The notes beneath the pieces are model-generated. The model was not told the DNA's origin, ran no database searches, and was given only the letters and a program-made list of their open reading frames with translations. From positions 1 to 64,000 of the forward strand of contig CAOKET010000001.1 of the NCBI GenBank assembly GCA_948467605.1: a stretch of 64,000 nucleotides of DNA, in the 5' to 3' direction. The translations under genes and the position numbers were made by a program. Position 1 is the stretch's first letter; every line of letters begins with the position of its first letter. The stretch is from an uncultured Mycoplasmatota bacterium (GTDB lineage: Bacteria > Bacillota_I > Bacilli_A > RF39 > UBA660). Positions 17,885 through 33,286 of the stretch are shown piece after piece.

Positions 17885-17899
17885 ATCCTCTGTTTTTTT
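17874..17899. terminator. Bidirectional terminator
   Basis: An 8-base-pair stem (17874-17881 with 17886-17893) with a TAAA loop and a T-run lies between convergent genes; the opposite strand also ends in a T-run. Confidence 0.85.
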
Positions 17900-18455
17900 A
17901 TTGAAATATTTCTTCAAACCATTTTTTAGCATTAATAAGTAATTCATCTAAAGTAAAATCACTTTGATCTCTAAAATACTTTATTATTTGAAATATTAGT
18001 CCATCTACAAAAAAGTTAATATCTAATTCTAAATATTTATTATTTTTTTCTGTGTCTTTAATTGCAGAATATAATTTTTGATTCGATAGTTTTCTTAATT
18101 TTTCTAAAAAGAATAGTGTTTCATTAGATGATAGAAGCATTCTATAAATCCTCTCATTTTTCTTTAAACAAGTAAATACATCGTTAAAATAGTGAAATAT
18201 ATCTTCTTTTTTATATGGACCTTTGTTGTTATCATTAATAAGTAATTCTATTGTTTCTAATTGATAGTCATTAGCAACATCATATATATCATCATAATGA
18301 GTATAAAAGGTACTTCTTGTAATATCTGCTCTTTTTACAAGTTCTGTTACTGTAATTTTACGAAGTTCTTTTTTTTCATTCATTAATTCTGCAAAAACTC
18401 TTTTAATTAATTTTCTGGTTTTCTTTGAAGATGAATTTAATCCTTGTACTTTCAT
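17898..18455 (-). CDS. TetR-family transcriptional regulator
   Basis: A 185-residue regulator. The N-terminal TetR helix-turn-helix covers residues 12-60 (ITVTELVKRADITRSTFYTHY). The helical C-terminal ligand domain resembles the TetR_C type found in FatR/DhaS-like regulators. It is transcribed divergently from the MMPL exporter at 18658, so it likely represses that gene and itself; a palindrome in the gap is the candidate operator. Confidence 0.88.
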   Translation of the reverse strand: MKVQGLNSSSKKTRKLIKRVFAELMNEKKELRKITVTELVKRADITRSTFYTHYDDIYDVANDYQLETIELLINDNNKGPYKKEDIFHYFNDVFTCLKKNERIYRMLLSSNETLFFLEKLRKLSNQKLYSAIKDTEKNNKYLELDINFFVDGLIFQIIKYFRDQSDFTLDELLINAKKWFEEIFQ

Positions 18456-18531: not shown

Positions 18532-18549
18532 ATGTCCAAATTTAGACAT
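18532..18549. promoter_or_regulatory. Candidate TetR operator palindrome
   Basis: ATGTCCAAATTTAGACAT is an 18-base palindrome with one mismatched pair, centred in the 202-base gap between the regulator and exporter. Its size and symmetry suit a TetR dimer. A second element, GGCTA...TAGCC at 18610-18628, lies just before the exporter Shine-Dalgarno and would be in its mRNA leader. Confidence 0.55.
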
Positions 18550-18657: not shown

Positions 18658-21600
18658 TTGAGGAAAATTGCAGATTTTGTTGTTGAAAAAAGACGATTTA
18701 TACTAACAATATTTATAATATTTTCTGTAATTGCAGTAATACTTAGATCTCACGTAAATATCAATTATGATATAGCAAAATACTTACCATCTACATCAGA
18801 AACAAGAATTGGTATGGATATTATGGAGAGTGAATTTGAAGAAACTGAGAGTTCATTTAACTTGATGTTTAAAGGTTTAAAAGAAGTAGAGAAGGATAAA
18901 ATATATAATGAGTTAAAGGGCATTAATGGAGTAAGTTCTATTGATTATGATAAGACTTCTGACTATAATAAGAATAATGCGACATTATATATAGTTAATG
19001 TTGGGGACTCTAAAGATTCTAAGTTAGCAACTGATGTTTTTAATGAAATAACAGAAAAGTATAATGAATATGATATTTATACAAGTGGTGATATTTCACA
19101 GAGAAATGCACCAGTGCTTAAATTTTGGATTATTGTACTTGCAGTATTGTGTGCACTTGTAATATTAATAATTATGTGTGAATCATACATTGAACCATTC
19201 TTGTTTTTAACTGCAATACTAATGGGAGTTTTGTTAAATTCTGGTACAAATATTATATTTAGTAATGTATCATATATTACAAATTCAATATGTGCGATAC
19301 TTCAAATGGCATTATCTATGGACTATTCAATAATGCTTATGAATAGGTATAGACAAGAAAGAGAGCATGAAGAAAATAAATCAACTGCGATGAAAAATAC
19401 TTTAAGGAATGCGTTCTTATCTATATCAAGTAGTTCAGTTACAACAATAGTTGGATTATTAGTATTAGTGTTTATGAGTTTTAGAATAGGACGTGATTTA
19501 GGATTTGTATTAGCAAAAGGGGTACTATTTAGTTTAATTTGTATATTACTAGTTTTATCTGCACTTATACTTATGTTTGATAAGTTGATTAGTAAAACAA
19601 AAAAGAAATGTCCAAATATAAGATTAAATAAACTAGGTAAACTAATTTATAGGTTTAGATATATAGCAATACCATTTTTCATAATTATATTATTATTTAG
19701 TTATTTTGAAAAAGGTAATTTAGGTATTTTATATACTAGTAAACAAGATGATGAAATATCAAAAGTATTTGCTGAGAACAACCAAATAGCAATAATATAT
19801 AAAAATAAAGATGAAGAAAAAGTTTCTAAACATTTAAAGCAACTTGAATCTATGAAAAAAATTGATTTAGTTTTGGGCTATAGTAACACAATTAATGAGA
19901 AATTAAAATATAATGAATTAAATTTAAAATTAAATGATTTATCCTCTGATGTTTCAGTTGATGATTACTTATTAAAGATTATTTACTATAATTATTATAA
20001 TAAAGATGAAAATAACAAAATGTCATTTAATGAGTTTGTATCGTTTATTAAGAATGATGTATATAGTAATCAAAATATAAGTGAAAAAATAGATAATGAA
20101 ACAAAAAGTAATATTGATAGATTAGAAAATTTTACTAATGGTGTTAAAGTTAATTCAAAGAGAAATTTAAATGATATATCTAATATTCTTGGCATAGATG
20201 ATAAAAAAATATATGATATATTGACTTACTATAATTCTAAACATAATAATTTAGTTTTAGGAATGAATGACTTTATATCATTTATGAAGAGTGATGTATT
20301 AACTAATAACACATATTCTAGCGGAATATCATCATCATCTAAATCAAGTTTAAATATGTTATCAAATTTCTCAACTAAGGATAAGTTTAATGCTAAAATG
20401 TCTAGTAATGAACTAGCAAACTTATTTGGTATAGATGAAGAAAAAATGGAGCAATTATACACATATTATATAAATGTTGGTGATATAAGTACAAAACTTA
20501 CACTTCAAGAGTTTTCATCATTTGTATTAAATAATGTTATTACTAATGACCAATATTCTTCGCTTTTTGATGAGGTAACTATTAATAGTATTAAAACATT
20601 AAATACATTTAGTAATAAAAATATTATTGAGAAAGATATGAATAGTACTCAATTATCTAGTATGTTTGGTATAAGTGAAGACATTATAAAGCAATTAATG
20701 TTATTAAAATATAGTAATCAAGATAATGGTACAAAATTAAGTATATTGGAATTTATTAATTATGTGACATATATTAAGAATAATACATCATACTTAGATA
20801 ATATCGATTTAAGTAGCATAGATAATTTAAAATTATATGTTGATACATTAGATGAGAAAAGTAAAAATACTAAACTAACTGCAACAGAGTTATCCACATT
20901 AGTTGGTATTGATAGTACTCAATTATATAGTTTATATGCATTAATAGATTTAGTACAAGGTAATACAAATAATTGGGTAATGTCTCCAAATGAATTAGTT
21001 AGTTTAATATTAAATAATGAAAGTATTAAAAATACTATTGATGCTTCTACATTGGGACAATTAACATTACTTTCTACAATAATGGATAGTACTTTAAATA
21101 ATATTTCATATACATACAGTGAATTATCAAATTTTATAGGATTAGATGTAATTAGTAGTAGAAATATATATACTTTATATATAATGTCAAATACAGGTGT
21201 TAAAATATCTTCATATGATTTTGTTAATTTTGTATTAAATCATTCATCTGATTCTGCATTATCTGGTAACTTTGATAAGAATACATTAGATAAATTAAAA
21301 TTATTACAATTAGTCATGAATGATGTTAATAATAATAAAAAGTATAATAGTAGTGAACTTAGTAAATTACTTGGAATTGATAAAAGTAGTTTGGATCTTA
21401 TTTATGGATTATATATATCTAAAAGTAATAATACAACAATATCATTAAAAGAATTAGTTTCATTTTTAGTTACTGATATGATGAAAAATGAAAGTTTTAA
21501 AGATAACTTTGATCAGGATTCAAGAACTAAGATTAATACAATAAATCAAATTATTAATTCATCTTCTAATAATGTTTTATATACAAAAGATGAACTATAT

Positions 21601-22515
21601 GATATTGCTAGTAAACTAAGTGATGGATTAGATAAGAATAAGGTTGATTTAGTATATATGTATTATGGAAGTGTTAAATCATATAATGATGCTTGGACTA
21701 TTACAGTTGAGGAATTTGTAAATCACTTAAATAATAAAATATTATCTGATAGCAGATTTAATGATTTTATATCTACTGATATGAGAAATGATATAGTATC
21801 AGCGAGAGATACTATTAAAGATGCTAAAAAGTTATTGATAGGAGATAAATATTCAAGGATTGTTATTAATACTAAGTTAGATTCTGAGTCAGAAGAAACT
21901 TTTGAATTTATTCAAAATTTAAAAGATACGTTTGGCAGTGATGTATATATTATAGGAGATTCTCCTATGGCATATGAAATGAGTAAGACATTTAATAGTG
22001 AATTAGACTTTATAACACTTCTTACAATAATTGCTATATTTATAGTTGTTGCATTTACATTTAAGTCTCTTATTATTCCTATTATATTGGTAGTAATAAT
22101 ACAATGTGCTGTATTTATGACAATGGGGATATTATCCTTAGCGGGGGATAGTGTTTACTTTATAGCGATTTTAATAGTACAAAGTATATTGATGGGTGCA
22201 ACTATAGATTATGCAATACTTTATACATCTTATTATATAGAACATAGAAGAACTATGAATGTTAAAGATTCTATTATAAATTCTTATAATCAATCAATAA
22301 ATACAATTTTAACATCTGCTTCAATTTTAATTATAGTAACATTAATAGTTGGCCATTTTGCATCTGCAATAGCGGCAAAAATATGTAAAACGATATCACA
22401 AGGAACTATGTGTGCATTAGTGCTAGTATTAGTATTATTGCCACCTATTTTGGCTGGCTTTGATAAACTTATAGTCAAAAATAAAATAGATAAGGTAAAA
22501 AAGAAAACAAGATAA
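18658..22515 (+). CDS. MMPL/RND-family exporter with repeat-filled extracytoplasmic loop
   Basis: A 1285-residue two-lobed exporter. Helix 1 is at residues 13-30; a small porter loop and five to six helices (about 155-330) follow with the motif MALSMDYSIMLMNRYRQE. After the next helix (343-357) comes a large loop of about 740 residues, then the second helix bundle (about 1110-1275) with GATIDYAILYTSYY. The loop is mostly seven to eight repeats of roughly 80 residues. Likely proton-driven export of lipid-like or amphipathic substrates by family. TTG start after AAGGAAGGTG. Control by the adjacent TetR-like regulator is inferred. Confidence 0.85.
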   Translation: MRKIADFVVEKRRFILTIFIIFSVIAVILRSHVNINYDIAKYLPSTSETRIGMDIMESEFEETESSFNLMFKGLKEVEKDKIYNELKGINGVSSIDYDKTSDYNKNNATLYIVNVGDSKDSKLATDVFNEITEKYNEYDIYTSGDISQRNAPVLKFWIIVLAVLCALVILIIMCESYIEPFLFLTAILMGVLLNSGTNIIFSNVSYITNSICAILQMALSMDYSIMLMNRYRQEREHEENKSTAMKNTLRNAFLSISSSSVTTIVGLLVLVFMSFRIGRDLGFVLAKGVLFSLICILLVLSALILMFDKLISKTKKKCPNIRLNKLGKLIYRFRYIAIPFFIIILLFSYFEKGNLGILYTSKQDDEISKVFAENNQIAIIYKNKDEEKVSKHLKQLESMKKIDLVLGYSNTINEKLKYNELNLKLNDLSSDVSVDDYLLKIIYYNYYNKDENNKMSFNEFVSFIKNDVYSNQNISEKIDNETKSNIDRLENFTNGVKVNSKRNLNDISNILGIDDKKIYDILTYYNSKHNNLVLGMNDFISFMKSDVLTNNTYSSGISSSSKSSLNMLSNFSTKDKFNAKMSSNELANLFGIDEEKMEQLYTYYINVGDISTKLTLQEFSSFVLNNVITNDQYSSLFDEVTINSIKTLNTFSNKNIIEKDMNSTQLSSMFGISEDIIKQLMLLKYSNQDNGTKLSILEFINYVTYIKNNTSYLDNIDLSSIDNLKLYVDTLDEKSKNTKLTATELSTLVGIDSTQLYSLYALIDLVQGNTNNWVMSPNELVSLILNNESIKNTIDASTLGQLTLLSTIMDSTLNNISYTYSELSNFIGLDVISSRNIYTLYIMSNTGVKISSYDFVNFVLNHSSDSALSGNFDKNTLDKLKLLQLVMNDVNNNKKYNSSELSKLLGIDKSSLDLIYGLYISKSNNTTISLKELVSFLVTDMMKNESFKDNFDQDSRTKINTINQIINSSSNNVLYTKDELYDIASKLSDGLDKNKVDLVYMYYGSVKSYNDAWTITVEEFVNHLNNKILSDSRFNDFISTDMRNDIVSARDTIKDAKKLLIGDKYSRIVINTKLDSESEETFEFIQNLKDTFGSDVYIIGDSPMAYEMSKTFNSELDFITLLTIIAIFIVVAFTFKSLIIPIILVVIIQCAVFMTMGILSLAGDSVYFIAILIVQSILMGATIDYAILYTSYYIEHRRTMNVKDSIINSYNQSINTILTSASILIIVTLIVGHFASAIAAKICKTISQGTMCALVLVLVLLPPILAGFDKLIVKNKIDKVKKKTR
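19959..21830 (+). repeat. Seven to eight protein-level repeats inside the exporter
   Basis: Each unit of about 78-90 residues begins with an (I/L)S..EFVSF-like helix, then an N/D-rich linker, a helix ending near LxxF, and an ELS.LFGID...I..LYxYY helix pair. Unit starts are near residues 435, 533, 617, 700, 780, 860, 940 and a partial last. The junction before the EF helix resembles an EF-hand loop, best in units 1 (NKDENNKMSFNEF) and 4 (NQDNGTKLSILEF), degenerate elsewhere. The DNA itself is diverged, so this is an old expansion. Confidence 0.75.
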
Positions 22516-22605: not shown

Positions 22606-23406
22606 ATGGATATAGAATTATTGGAGAAATTTAAGAAGAAAGTTGAAATGGAAAGTACCTATGATAAGTTACTAAGTCGTAAGGCAATAGATACATTAAT
22701 AGATTATTTTGATGTTGATGTTGAAGAAATCCATTATTCTAAAACTATATTTAGTCCAAAAGAACTAGCATTATCATTTTATCAAGTGTATTTTCCAGGG
22801 TATTATGAAATAATTTTAGATGGTATATTAACAGGAAAAATATTGATAAGTAATAGCGTAAAACAATCTGTTACATATTTAGATACTGGTGAGGCACAAA
22901 TAAAGACGTTTAATACAGATAAAGATGTATTTGAGATTGTACATGAATTTGCTCATTATATTGATTTGCATTTATATCCCCATTTAGTTGGAGAGTATAT
23001 ATTATTTTCAGAGGTAGTTTCATTTTATTTTGAAAAGTGCTTTGAGAAGATTTATCAAAAATATTATTTATATTTAATACATATACGAAGAAATAATAGG
23101 TTATTTTATGAATGTGAGATGCTTAAAGTTATAAGATATATGTTAGAATATGAGGACTATTATAAACAACATGGTAATATAGATGCAATAATAGATGAAG
23201 ATAGAATAAAACTAATAATGAGTTATAAATCTAATAACACAGTTAATACATTATTAAAGTATCCACTTGCTAATTTAATATCAAATTATATGATAATTAA
23301 TGACATTAAGATGAGGCAAAATATAGACGAATATATAATGAGTGAATTTAATTTATTCGAATTAATGGGAGATAATGATGTAAGAAAATCTATTATGGTA
23401 AAATAA
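22606..23406 (+). CDS. HExxH gluzincin-like protein, copy 1
   Basis: A 266-residue protein paralogous to the one at 24391. A zinc-protease signature EIVHEFAHYID (HExxH near residue 113) is followed about 25 residues later by SEVVSFYFE, like the third-ligand helix of M3-type gluzincins. No signal peptide, so cytosolic. N- and C-terminal thirds are well conserved between the two copies, the middle less so. Family not identified; peptidase activity is inferred from the motif. Confidence 0.7.
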   Translation: MDIELLEKFKKKVEMESTYDKLLSRKAIDTLIDYFDVDVEEIHYSKTIFSPKELALSFYQVYFPGYYEIILDGILTGKILISNSVKQSVTYLDTGEAQIKTFNTDKDVFEIVHEFAHYIDLHLYPHLVGEYILFSEVVSFYFEKCFEKIYQKYYLYLIHIRRNNRLFYECEMLKVIRYMLEYEDYYKQHGNIDAIIDEDRIKLIMSYKSNNTVNTLLKYPLANLISNYMIINDIKMRQNIDEYIMSEFNLFELMGDNDVRKSIMVK

Positions 23407-24390: not shown

Positions 24391-25233
24391 ATGGATACAG
24401 GGTTGTTGGAAAAGTTTAAGAGGAAAGTTGAAATGGAAAGTACTTATAATAAATTATTAAGTCGTAAGGCGATAAATACATTAATAAATTATTTTGATGT
24501 TGATATTGAAGAGATTACTTATTCTAACACAATATCTAATCCAAAAGAACTAGCATTATCATATTATCAAGAGTATTTTCCAGAGTATTATAAAATAATT
24601 TTAGATGGAATAAAAACGGGAAAAATAAAAATAGGTAGTGATATTGAAAAGAGTGAAGTATTGGAAGATGGAAAATGCTTTATAAAATTAAATAATGATG
24701 ATTTTGATTTAATTGTAATTGTTCATGAATTAGGTCATTATATTAATAATAATATCACATCTAAATTTGTACAAAAGCATAGAATATTTGGAGAAGTAGT
24801 GTCATTTTATTTTGAAAAGGATTTTGAAGAGAAAAATATAGGTAAATATGGGAATTTATTTTCTGCTAGAAGGAGTCACCGTATTCTTAGTGAACGTAAG
24901 ATGATACACGCTATTAAATATATGTTAGAATATGAAGATTATTATTTAGAACATGGTAATATAGATGCAATAATAGATGAGAAAAAAATAAAACTAATAT
25001 TAAAATTATCATCTTATCATTGTATTGGATATGGTGAATATGACACGGTTAATACATTATTAAAGTATCCACTTGCTAATTTAATATCAAGTTATATGAT
25101 AATTAATGATCTTGAGATGAAGCAAAATATAGATGAATATATTATTTACAATATTGATTTATTTGAATTAATGGAAGATGAGAGAATAAGAAAATCTATA
25201 TTAATAGATGAAAACTTACAAAAATTGGCGTAA
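24391..25233 (+). CDS. HExxH gluzincin-like protein, copy 2
   Basis: A 280-residue paralogue of 22606-23406. Shared stretches include LLEKFKRKVEMESTY, KYPLANLIS and the EDYY...HGNIDAIIDE block. The zinc motif is IVHELGHYIN with the downstream EVVSFYFE. It follows the PHP gene by 19 bases (AGGAGGG), so the two are likely one operon. The duplication is recent enough that the flanking thirds remain very similar. Confidence 0.7.
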   Translation: MDTGLLEKFKRKVEMESTYNKLLSRKAINTLINYFDVDIEEITYSNTISNPKELALSYYQEYFPEYYKIILDGIKTGKIKIGSDIEKSEVLEDGKCFIKLNNDDFDLIVIVHELGHYINNNITSKFVQKHRIFGEVVSFYFEKDFEEKNIGKYGNLFSARRSHRILSERKMIHAIKYMLEYEDYYLEHGNIDAIIDEKKIKLILKLSSYHCIGYGEYDTVNTLLKYPLANLISSYMIINDLEMKQNIDEYIIYNIDLFELMEDERIRKSILIDENLQKLA

Positions 25234-28978: not shown

Positions 28979-29080
28979 GCTTGAAAAATTTTCTAAAAAG
29001 AGATAACATCATTATTGTAAAAACACTTGCATATTTAAATGATTTGCATTAAAATATCCACTAAAAAGGAAGTATGTTTT

Positions 29081-32000
29081 ATGAAAAAAGTAAAAGATAA
29101 ATTTAATAAAAAAGGTAATTTGGCATTGATTGTGGTAGCAACATTATTTTTAACATTTATAGTAGTGTTGAATATTAATTTTATTAAAGAAGATATTCCA
29201 ATGCAATCCTTTAATTATTCATTCTCTAATACTTACTTATCTTATAATAAAGATGATGTTAGGTATTTATCAGATCTTAATTTTATTATGGATAATAACT
29301 GGTCATATAATGGTTGGGCTGGTCATAGTCTTCAAAAGGATAAGAATCAGGAGGGAACTCCATTAAGCCTTTTGATAGATGGTGAAAGACGTTATTTTTC
29401 CAAAGGTATAGGTATTCATGGAAAGGGGCAGGCAACTTTTGACATTTCAGCATTATCAACTGAATTTCCTCGTTTTATTGCTAAAATTGGAGTCGATGCT
29501 TCAAGGGGAAGTAACGGAAATATTTGGATTCAAATTTTAGTATCAAATAATGGTACTAATTGGACATCTCTATTAAAGACTGGAAATATGACTGGTACGA
29601 CAAATGCTGTAGATGTTGATGTAAATGTTAGTGGGTATAAATATTTAAGAATATATGTTGATCCAGTTGGAAGTAATGCTGCTGATCATGGTACTATTGC
29701 TAATGCAAGGCTAGTAAAAGCAAACTTCGATAAAAATTCAGTTGTATATGACAAAATAAAAACATATCAATACTATGATGAAATTTTGCGTACTCAAGAT
29801 GCTAGTTATAACTATAAAAATAACTATAGACAAATACTTGAGAGAGAATTTGTAAAGAAAATTGGTTATTGGAACATCCAAGATCTTGTAGAACATACTA
29901 AAGGTATGTATGAAACTATTGAATGGATTTTAAGTAATAATGAAACTATCGAGCAAATCATTGAAGTTGGAGAAATTTCTAATACTTTAACTTTTATGAA
30001 TGTTTTAAATGATTTATATACAAAAAATAAAGAAATATTAAATACTCAAAATGGTTATGTTTATAAAAAAATGATGATTGGTCTAGCAGCGGCTTATTCT
30101 ACTGATAGAATTATTTCACCACTTTCATTTTCTTTTCAAACCCCAACTTATGATTATATGGAACGATTTGAATTAATGAAACAATTATTTGATAATAATA
30201 AACTTATGAGAGTTAAAACTAATGCTCTATCGGGTGAATTTGTGGTTAATGATTGGTTTAAGGATTATCACGTTGAGTTAATGCGTATGGTTATGCAGGA
30301 TGGTACAAGTAATGGGGATCTTATATGGCTTAATGGTTTTACTAGTGAAAAACAAAGTGTAAGTTTCTATATGATAGGTTATGTTTCACCAGTTTATACA
30401 CAAGATAAGTTTTACGATGAGGCTAATAAAGAAACATATGACCAAAGATTTTATTTAACTAAATATGGGGTTCCATATGGACTTACAAATGGAGTCAAAG
30501 TTCCAAGATATTGGATGGTTTTTGCCAATGGTGGAATTTGTTGGAATGCTTCTCGTGTTGGTCAAAGTATGTATCGTGTTAATGGTCTTCCTGCTACTGG
30601 CGCTTATCAAGTGGGCCATGAATTATATATACAATATTATGAAGATGGAAATGGTAATGGATATTGGACACCAAGATATGGTAATTGGAGCGGTGCTGGA
30701 AGTACATGGGGTGGAGGAAATCCTTATCGTTATATATTCAACTGGAACAATAAATCTTTTACTGACAAACACATTAGTGGTTCTAAGGTAGCATCAAGTA
30801 CTGGTTACTTGTATTTAGGACAGGCAAATTTAAATAATTACGAACAATATAAAAAGTCTCTATATTATAATTTACTGGCTAATTCTTATACAGATAATGC
30901 TAAAAAGTTGGAAACTTATTTTAAGGCGTTAGAAATTAATGATTTGAACTTAGATAGTTATGATTATATTATTTCTCTTTATAAAAAAATGAGCGTTAAA
31001 AATGATGGTGGAACGATAACATCTAATGATTGGTATAATTTAGCAAATAAGATAATTGATGCATATACTTATTATCCTGTTGCAATGTTTGATTTATTAA
31101 AAGTTATAAGACCATATTTAGAAGGTGCTGAAAGATTAGATATTGATAGGCTTGAAAAGGAGGCTTTAACAAAGGCTACTCAAGCAACAACAAACGAAAC
31201 TATTCAAGTTGATGGTGTTAGAACACATGCTAGACAGCTTTTAGGAAAAGCACAACCTGATCCAATATCATTCTCATTTGATGGAGAAAATGCTGGTAAA
31301 ATAGTTAAAAACCCTAATTATTCTATTGCATATGGCTATAGTTTAGATGGTGGAAAAACATTCTCTAAACAAGTAATGGATGATTCGATTACTTTAACTA
31401 AAGAAGAGTTAGAACGTATTACTGCCGAAAATGATATTATAATTAATTTTATGGGATTGAGTTATACATTTAGAATTGATATTACAAAAGGTGTAATACC
31501 TTCAACTATTTATGCTAATGATTTGGAAAATCGTGTTGTAGGTGTAAATACAACTTTTGAATGGAGAAATTCCCAGAGTGATTCTTGGAAATCTTATAAA
31601 GATAAAAGTCCAGATTTAACAGGTGATAAAACTGTTCAACTTAGAGTAGGTGCAACTGGAACGAAACTTCCAAGTGATTATGTAACATATACTTTTACAC
31701 AGGATAATCAACCAAATACAAGAAAATATGTTCCCGTATCACATTTAAGCATACATGATGTATCTACTCAAGCGACAAATAATCAGGGGTCCGCTGCATT
31801 TGCAATAGATGGAAATTATAACACAAGATGGCATAGTGCTTGGAATGGAACAGACACTCAAAGGTTTATAACAATTAAGTTAGATAAACCTAGATATGTA
31901 TCTGCAGTAGAATTTGTACCTGCAGGTGGTGGTAATGGAAGAATTAATGATGGTACAGTTTGGGGAAGTATGGATGGTGTGACTTGGGAAAAGTTATCAG

Positions 32001-33286
32001 AAATGAAAAATATTACTTATCCAGTGCAAGCTAATACTAATGAACAGGCGATTCTTTATACTAAGAGTTTTGAAATAACTGATCCTAAAGAAGTACAATA
32101 TATAAAAATAGTTGCCGATAGAACAAATGGAAATTGGTTTACAGCACGTGCTTTCAATATTTATCAAGATTTAACAAAAAACTTACGTCCAACTGCAGGT
32201 GTAGGCTATAGTGAAACTGAACCAACAACTAAAAATGTAATAGCAAGACTAGTAAATCCAAGTACTAATATCACTATAACTAATAATGGTGGAAGTGATA
32301 CATATGTATTTACTAAAAATGGAGAATTTACTTTTGAGTTTATTGATGGCAATAATGTTAAAGGTACAACTACTGCTAAAGTAGATTGGATTGATAGAAC
32401 TGCTCCAACTGCTACTATTCAATATAGTACTACGTCATTTACTAATCAAACTGTTGTTGCAACTTTGAAACCTAGTGAAGATGTAATTGTTACTAATAAT
32501 GGTGAATATAGAATTGGTGATGATGGAAGTGTTCTTGATAAAGATGGGAATATCATAAATGGATATACAGTAGATAAAGATGGTAATGTTAAGGATTCTA
32601 ATGGTAATATGATTGCTAATATAAATACATTTACATATGAATTTTTATCAAATGGTGAGTTCACTTTCGAGTTTATGGATAGGGCAGGTAATAAGGGTAA
32701 TGCAACCGCTAAGGTTACTTGGATAGATCATGATGTTCCAACTGCAGAATTAAAGTATGAAAGGGTTGGAAACAAAGTCATAGTTCGTGTTGTAAATCCT
32801 AGTGAAAATATTACTTTTCAAAATGGGAATGGAGTTTACGAATTTAGTAAAAATGGTACTTATGACATCTATTTCTTTGATAAGGTTGGAAATGTTGGTA
32901 AAGTAACTGCAATTATTAATGGCTTGAAGGATAATACTAGTGATGGTAATCAAGATGTAAATACTAAACCAGATGATAGTAATAATATAAGTAATATTGG
33001 TGGAAACAATACTACTGTTAATAATAGTGATTACAATTCTGGAAATGATATGTTTGATAAAGATGATGATACTTCATCTGTTGAACCTACTGATCCAGAT
33101 AATCAAAAACCAAGCGAAAATGATAAGCCAAATGATAATAATCAAAATATTGTTAATAAAGAAGATACAAAAGTAAATAATAATGATAATAAAAAAGGTA
33201 TTTATATTGTTATCGCATCAATTGTAACAACTCTTGTAATTGTCATTATTGGCGCTTTTGTTGCTCATAAGAAAAAAACTTTATAA
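29081..33286 (+). CDS. Giant surface protein: NPCBM, transglutaminase-like, F5/8C and Ig-like domains
   Basis: A 1401-residue exported protein. A signal anchor (residues 11-33) precedes an NPCBM-like carbohydrate-binding domain (about 55-215) and a central region whose GGICWNASRVGQSMY...QVGHELY (Cys 487, His 513) looks like a transglutaminase-type Cys/His pair. Then come beta domains, an F5/8-type C (discoidin) domain (about 885-1030), three Ig-like repeats (about 1035-1285), an Asn/Asp-rich spacer and a C-terminal helix with KKKTL tail. No LPxTG. It probably binds host or dietary glycans at the cell surface. ATG 29081 follows AAAGGAAG. Confidence 0.8.
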   Translation: MKKVKDKFNKKGNLALIVVATLFLTFIVVLNINFIKEDIPMQSFNYSFSNTYLSYNKDDVRYLSDLNFIMDNNWSYNGWAGHSLQKDKNQEGTPLSLLIDGERRYFSKGIGIHGKGQATFDISALSTEFPRFIAKIGVDASRGSNGNIWIQILVSNNGTNWTSLLKTGNMTGTTNAVDVDVNVSGYKYLRIYVDPVGSNAADHGTIANARLVKANFDKNSVVYDKIKTYQYYDEILRTQDASYNYKNNYRQILEREFVKKIGYWNIQDLVEHTKGMYETIEWILSNNETIEQIIEVGEISNTLTFMNVLNDLYTKNKEILNTQNGYVYKKMMIGLAAAYSTDRIISPLSFSFQTPTYDYMERFELMKQLFDNNKLMRVKTNALSGEFVVNDWFKDYHVELMRMVMQDGTSNGDLIWLNGFTSEKQSVSFYMIGYVSPVYTQDKFYDEANKETYDQRFYLTKYGVPYGLTNGVKVPRYWMVFANGGICWNASRVGQSMYRVNGLPATGAYQVGHELYIQYYEDGNGNGYWTPRYGNWSGAGSTWGGGNPYRYIFNWNNKSFTDKHISGSKVASSTGYLYLGQANLNNYEQYKKSLYYNLLANSYTDNAKKLETYFKALEINDLNLDSYDYIISLYKKMSVKNDGGTITSNDWYNLANKIIDAYTYYPVAMFDLLKVIRPYLEGAERLDIDRLEKEALTKATQATTNETIQVDGVRTHARQLLGKAQPDPISFSFDGENAGKIVKNPNYSIAYGYSLDGGKTFSKQVMDDSITLTKEELERITAENDIIINFMGLSYTFRIDITKGVIPSTIYANDLENRVVGVNTTFEWRNSQSDSWKSYKDKSPDLTGDKTVQLRVGATGTKLPSDYVTYTFTQDNQPNTRKYVPVSHLSIHDVSTQATNNQGSAAFAIDGNYNTRWHSAWNGTDTQRFITIKLDKPRYVSAVEFVPAGGGNGRINDGTVWGSMDGVTWEKLSEMKNITYPVQANTNEQAILYTKSFEITDPKEVQYIKIVADRTNGNWFTARAFNIYQDLTKNLRPTAGVGYSETEPTTKNVIARLVNPSTNITITNNGGSDTYVFTKNGEFTFEFIDGNNVKGTTTAKVDWIDRTAPTATIQYSTTSFTNQTVVATLKPSEDVIVTNNGEYRIGDDGSVLDKDGNIINGYTVDKDGNVKDSNGNMIANINTFTYEFLSNGEFTFEFMDRAGNKGNATAKVTWIDHDVPTAELKYERVGNKVIVRVVNPSENITFQNGNGVYEFSKNGTYDIYFFDKVGNVGKVTAIINGLKDNTSDGNQDVNTKPDDSNNISNIGGNNTTVNNSDYNSGNDMFDKDDDTSSVEPTDPDNQKPSENDKPNDNNQNIVNKEDTKVNNNDNKKGIYIVIASIVTTLVIVIIGAFVAHKKKTL

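Follow-up and report, generated by a model that had tools for sequence, protein, structure and literature searches.

The exporter gene and its divergent regulator

The window, a stretch of 64,000 nucleotides, carries on its forward strand an open reading frame at 18658-22515, which encodes 1285 amino acids from a TTG start codon with a good ribosome-binding site (AAGGAAGG) 5' of it, and whose homologues start at the same residue. Its product matched Pfam MMPL (PF03176) in two stretches, corresponding to the two halves of the protein, at 127.4 bits against a cut-off of 20.5 (E = 7.6e-37). It also contains two Asp-Tyr pairs, D222-Y223 in TM4 (19321-19326, forward strand) and D1184-Y1185 in TM10 (22207-22212, forward strand), both invariant in nine aligned homologues and, by analogy with the MMPL family, predicted to serve as the proton relay. 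The Pfam match and both pairs bear out the MMPL/RND identity given in an initial annotation of this DNA, and so we regard the product as an MMPL/RND exporter of a gut-dwelling member of the class Bacilli, for which export and proton drive are predicted. The curated whole-protein cut-offs of TIGR00833 (actII; 138.5 vs 874.7 bits) and TIGR00921 (HAE3; 104.6 vs 351.9 bits) were missed by this ORF. Hydropathy and alignment place a large extracytoplasmic loop after TM1 and another after TM7, and the exporter would have 12 TM segments if it follows the rest of the family, some of these being left unseparated by a simple hydropathy scan. No other MMPL gene was found in the draft genome, which amounts to 1.38 Mb.

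Divergently transcribed from it is a gene for a TetR-family regulator of 185 amino acids (17898-18455, reverse strand; Pfam TetR_C_8), and 68 of the loci examined have a TetR homologue in the corresponding position, among them 59 of the 75 for which upstream sequence exceeds 900 bp. Between the two genes lies a near-perfect palindrome, ATGTCCAAATTTAGACAT (18532-18549, core at 18533-18548), which carries 15 of the 16 bases of the consensus TGTCTAAATTTAGACA and is the predicted TetR operator. Intergenic palindromes matching this consensus at 13 or more of 16 positions were present at 59 of 86 loci (16/16 at 27 of them), mostly 85-100 bp before the start codon, and about 0.2% of dinucleotide shuffles reached the same threshold, a figure which is favourable as the consensus was derived from the same loci, but the palindromes can also be recognised individually. 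We infer that the TetR product binds the palindrome. Two relatives (L134 and L136) gave no TetR match upstream of the MMPL gene; there the start codon is preceded, at a distance of about 126-129 bp, by a palindrome of different sequence (GAATTGGGGACGTCCCCAATTC and a near copy), and these genes are possibly under another regulator.

The arrangement resembles that of FarE/FarR of Staphylococcus aureus, a divergent TetR/RND pair of fatty-acid resistance (PMC10019231, PMC12671165), in that an RND pump is paired with a divergently transcribed TetR regulator in a Gram-positive bacterium. The likeness is one of gene layout, and the fatty-acid substrate is that of FarE; the matching layout supports the view that the window encodes an inducible exporter of a presumed amphiphile.

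A search for relatives of the two genes that flank the exporter in the window brought up TetR as the one conserved partner. No homologue of the downstream gene (22606-23406) lies near other copies of the exporter, which places it outside the system, and its 266-residue product gave no convincing Pfam match. It has a paralogue of 280 amino acids at 24391-25233, both having HExxH-like motifs (VHEFAHYI, VHELGHYI), with a PHP-like protein sitting between the two. Elsewhere in the window, 29039-33286 encodes a protein of 1415 residues that seems to have a signal at its N-terminus and a membrane anchor at its C-terminus, and which by eye is a large surface protein with NPCBM/discoidin-like parts.

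Eight repeats in the second porter loop

Residues 413-1053 of the exporter (~640 residues) consist of eight units of ~79 residues, all of them within the porter loop that joins TM7 to TM8, the second of the two. The array is bounded by hydrophobic segments at about 329-351 (TM7) and from about 1117 onwards (the TM8 region), and it is flanked on both sides by the two conserved porter halves, so that hydropathy agrees with the earlier placing of the repeats in the second extracytoplasmic loop. Self-comparison of the protein gave a significant peak at lag 79, the best block-pair score being 154 against a maximum of 61 among 1050 shuffled pairs, and an HMM of the unit found eight copies, each with an iE of 4.2e-18 or lower. 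This HMM was trained on the window's own and homologous units and hence its E-values are not independent, whereas the shuffle test is. The "seven to eight" repeats of ~80 residues that were originally reported are present, and can now be given exactly as eight of ~79.

All on the forward strand and delimited with the unit HMM, the units comprise residues 413-494 (unit 1; 19894-20139; iE 4.3e-21), 499-572 (unit 2; 20152-20373), 578-653 (unit 3; 20389-20616), 659-729 (unit 4; 20632-20844), 737-810 (unit 5; 20866-21087), 815-888 (unit 6; 21100-21321), 893-967 (unit 7; 21334-21558) and 975-1053 (unit 8; 21580-21816). Unit 8 has a small insertion, SKLSDGLD, which is found again in the final unit of relatives whose copy number differs. 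The array is rich in Asn and Ser (13.3% each), is without Cys, and is less conserved than the TM core (44% vs about 71-75%). No Pfam family covers the repeat unit, and Pfam scans of single units gave scattered weak matches, several of them to helix-turn-helix (HTH) families, none convincing.

Distribution and history of the repeats

A profile scan of 392 genomes of the phylum found strong unit matches exclusively within long MMPL ORFs, those in the window's own genome being these eight and no others; the HMM of the units thus shows them to recur in other long MMPL proteins, as the initial annotation had thought could be checked. Scanning of genome contigs confirmed at least 571 relatives, and the best 80 of them, mostly MAGs with "Lapin" isolate names suggesting the rabbit gut, were kept. 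Among 89 proteins (the window's included) each has 6-9 units in about 1116-1397 residues. Other families of Bacilli have the same core with the same insertion point and with 0 units (701 amino acids; L162), one (715 and 746), two (823 and 829), three (893 and 928), about five (1093) or six or seven units (1159, 1165 and 1226). Repeat-free MMPLs such as the 701-residue protein share the core, the porter halves and the insertion point with the window's exporter and differ from it in being without repeats.

Large loops in which no unit can be detected occur in some MMPLs of the class, so that long MMPLs also carry insertions of other kinds, a point that tells against the stalk reading given below. 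Three MMPLs of ~1000-1070 amino acids (L150, L155 and L156) have loop 2 insertions unmatched by the unit profile, which may be very diverged repeats. Two others from the same bacterial family as the window are without repeats at 1285 (L160) and 1271 (L161) amino acids, the former having, after its MMPL core, a region resembling YhgE/Pip by eye. Weak class-level unit matches in two further proteins (L140 and L141) were discarded as chance, these being non-MMPL proteins.

Units are closer to those at the same position in other species (36-55% identity) than to units at other positions (18-30%), indicating that the array is old and position-specific. Copy number mapped onto the core tree took 55 parsimony steps against a mean of 84 for shuffled labels, with some error in the counts where units were missed, so copy number partly follows lineage, and sister pairs on the tree may differ, for example with 9 vs 7 units. 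The range from none to nine suggests an external stalk of adjustable length.

These observations bear on whether length matters at all, as the array could instead be a nearly neutral spacer, growing and shrinking by unequal recombination without any length-dependent role. Frequent copy-number change (the 55 steps, and sister pairs such as that with 9 and 7) would be expected of such a spacer, and the lower conservation of the repeats than of the TM core also fits one that is loosely constrained; but the copy number is held at 6-9 across the 89 proteins, the positional identity of the units is kept over deep divergence, and the excess of steps on shuffled labels shows that number follows lineage in part. 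We therefore consider a neutral spacer quite unlikely.

It is also unlikely, if somewhat less so, that the array serves in adhesion or docking, as a platform for peptidoglycan, a host glycan or an envelope protein which sits incidentally on an exporter. Large external insertions often bind, the mutual differences between unit positions would suit distinct contacts and the repeats have the Asn and Ser content noted above, but no convincing match to an adhesion or wall-binding family was found in Pfam, the repeats are set into the porter itself, between its halves, and the association with TetR argues for expression induced by substrate.

Predicted structure of the repeats and the EF-hand question

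AlphaFold2 modelling of loop 2 alone, as a monomer with 37 sequences, gave a regular all-helical repeat array (pLDDT 87.6, pTM 0.59) rather than one globular non-repeating domain. A rod, as first proposed for it, is plausible, though the array might also be curved or collapsed. A typical unit in this model runs helix, short helix, bridge, helix, helix, loop, bridge, helix; the predicted order of helix, bridge, helix, helix, bridge, helix upholds the helix-loop-helix character ascribed to the units. A model of two units, including unit 3, had a pLDDT of 87.1, and it lacked the bridge residues that, in the model of loop 2, DSSP had assigned to the two loops of most units. Foldseek searches of the PDB with the whole-loop and two-unit models found nothing at E ≤ 0.001, and the sole EF-hand protein among the matches listed was secretagogin, at rank 31 with a probability of 0.07.

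The initial annotation had called the repeats EF-hand-like and had envisaged a cation-sensing sleeve, and the reading that follows from it is that they are EF-hand pairs which bind calcium or another cation and so gate or stiffen the exporter. EF-hand pairs, as in calmodulin and troponin C, are likewise pairs of helix-loop-helix elements in which an h-T/S-x-x-E-F motif opens the second helix, and the predicted unit topology is compatible with such a pair. Compared with a null in which the h-T-x-x-E-F anchors were preserved, 713 units were enriched in a relaxed EF pattern (140 vs 63, null range 47-77), but the strict PROSITE pattern (D1, Gly6, E12) matched 1 of the 713 against 3.15 in the null. 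At position 1 of the loop, 31% of units have D, E or N, and position 6 does not have Gly as one of its common residues. The repeats differ from EF-hand pairs in having no canonical calcium ligands, as well as in their variable loop length and in giving no fold or family match.

Pfam EF-hand_1 reached E = 0.15 at best on the whole protein, and single units gave one EFHB-type match at 0.061 and no other EF type among the families listed. The unit profile aligned end-to-end with five calmodulin/troponin C lobes, but weakly (probability 24.5%, P = 0.0008), and with a wide unit profile the lambda repressor HTH (E = 6e-5) ranked ahead of the first EF-hand protein (0.76). A narrow profile run against PDB sequences ranked a designed repeat protein first; GCAP3, considered there as an EF-hand homologue, was rejected at 0.0068 for the whole chain and 0.56 for the best domain.

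Of the loops examined, only that of unit 1 (NKDENNKMSFNEF, residues 448-460; 19999-20037, forward strand) has well kept EF-like ligand residues: column counts in 40 eight-repeat proteins gave N1 in 39, D/E/N at position 3 in 35 and E/D12 in 36. In the unit 4 loop (NQDNGTKLSILEF, residues 687-699) such positions are not conserved, and distant homologues retain the array without acidic loops. Classical calcium EF-hands are thus unsupported except for a possible candidate site in unit 1, and so is cation sensing by the array. The EF-hand label is mostly not supported and should be dropped or kept as a minor hypothesis; we judge true cation-binding EF-hand pairs to be improbable.

The HTH resemblance lies in an A-x3-G-x5-hydrophobic pattern in helices 2-3, shared with domains such as that of the lambda repressor. 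The repeats differ from these in being external, in having an extra C-terminal helix and in giving no significant fold match, and DNA binding by them is unlikely. Besides this HTH-like pattern the unit has stretches with an EF-hand-like E-F end, and its ancestry might lie with either fold.

A possible stalk on a Gram-positive exporter

A close architectural parallel is with MmpL4 and MmpL5 of mycobacteria, in which an MMPL core likewise carries a long helical insertion in the second porter domain. The insertion of MmpL5 is a 196-residue coiled coil in PD2 that is required for efflux and has been modelled as a tube of ~13 nm (PMC12501195). It is an antiparallel coiled coil with a disulfide at its tip, whereas the ~640 residues here are predicted to form short repeated helices and are without Cys, and so a helical-repeat stalk would be analogous to the MmpL5 tube but is not demonstrably homologous to it. 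By analogy with that insertion, which is essential and lies in the same domain of the porter, a stalk or sleeve on the outside is suggested here.

The best explanation of the locus, which we consider to have an even chance of being right, is that of a TetR-controlled, proton-driven MMPL exporter with a stalk or sleeve whose length is set by repeat copy number. The TetR product would bind the palindrome, making expression inducible; the exported compound would be hydrophobic or amphiphilic, its class and the direction of transport being predictions; and the array would prolong the exit path of the porter on the outer side, into the cell wall; substrate might then be let go away from the membrane or passed to a partner, with copy number setting the length of the stalk. 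Transpeptidase and MraY-type genes are present in the host genome, suggesting that the cell probably makes peptidoglycan.

The domain architecture is real and conserved, on a known kind of transporter, and apparently undescribed: literature searches for an MMPL with EF-hands or repeats, mostly among open-access papers, found no description. It brings to light a repeat domain outside the coverage of Pfam. We suggest, as a tentative and rather doubtful extension, that an RND exporter may have arisen independently in Bacilli with a conduit or stalk built from helical-repeat modules, in which 0-9 copies tune the distance that substrate is carried through the Gram-positive wall and unit 1 is possibly a cation-sensitive hinge. 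RND exporters of Gram-positive bacteria are little studied, including how substrates pass through the wall, and the natural series of 0-9 repeats in one exporter, together with a matched regulator and a predicted operator, would make the hypothesis of a "length ruler" directly testable.
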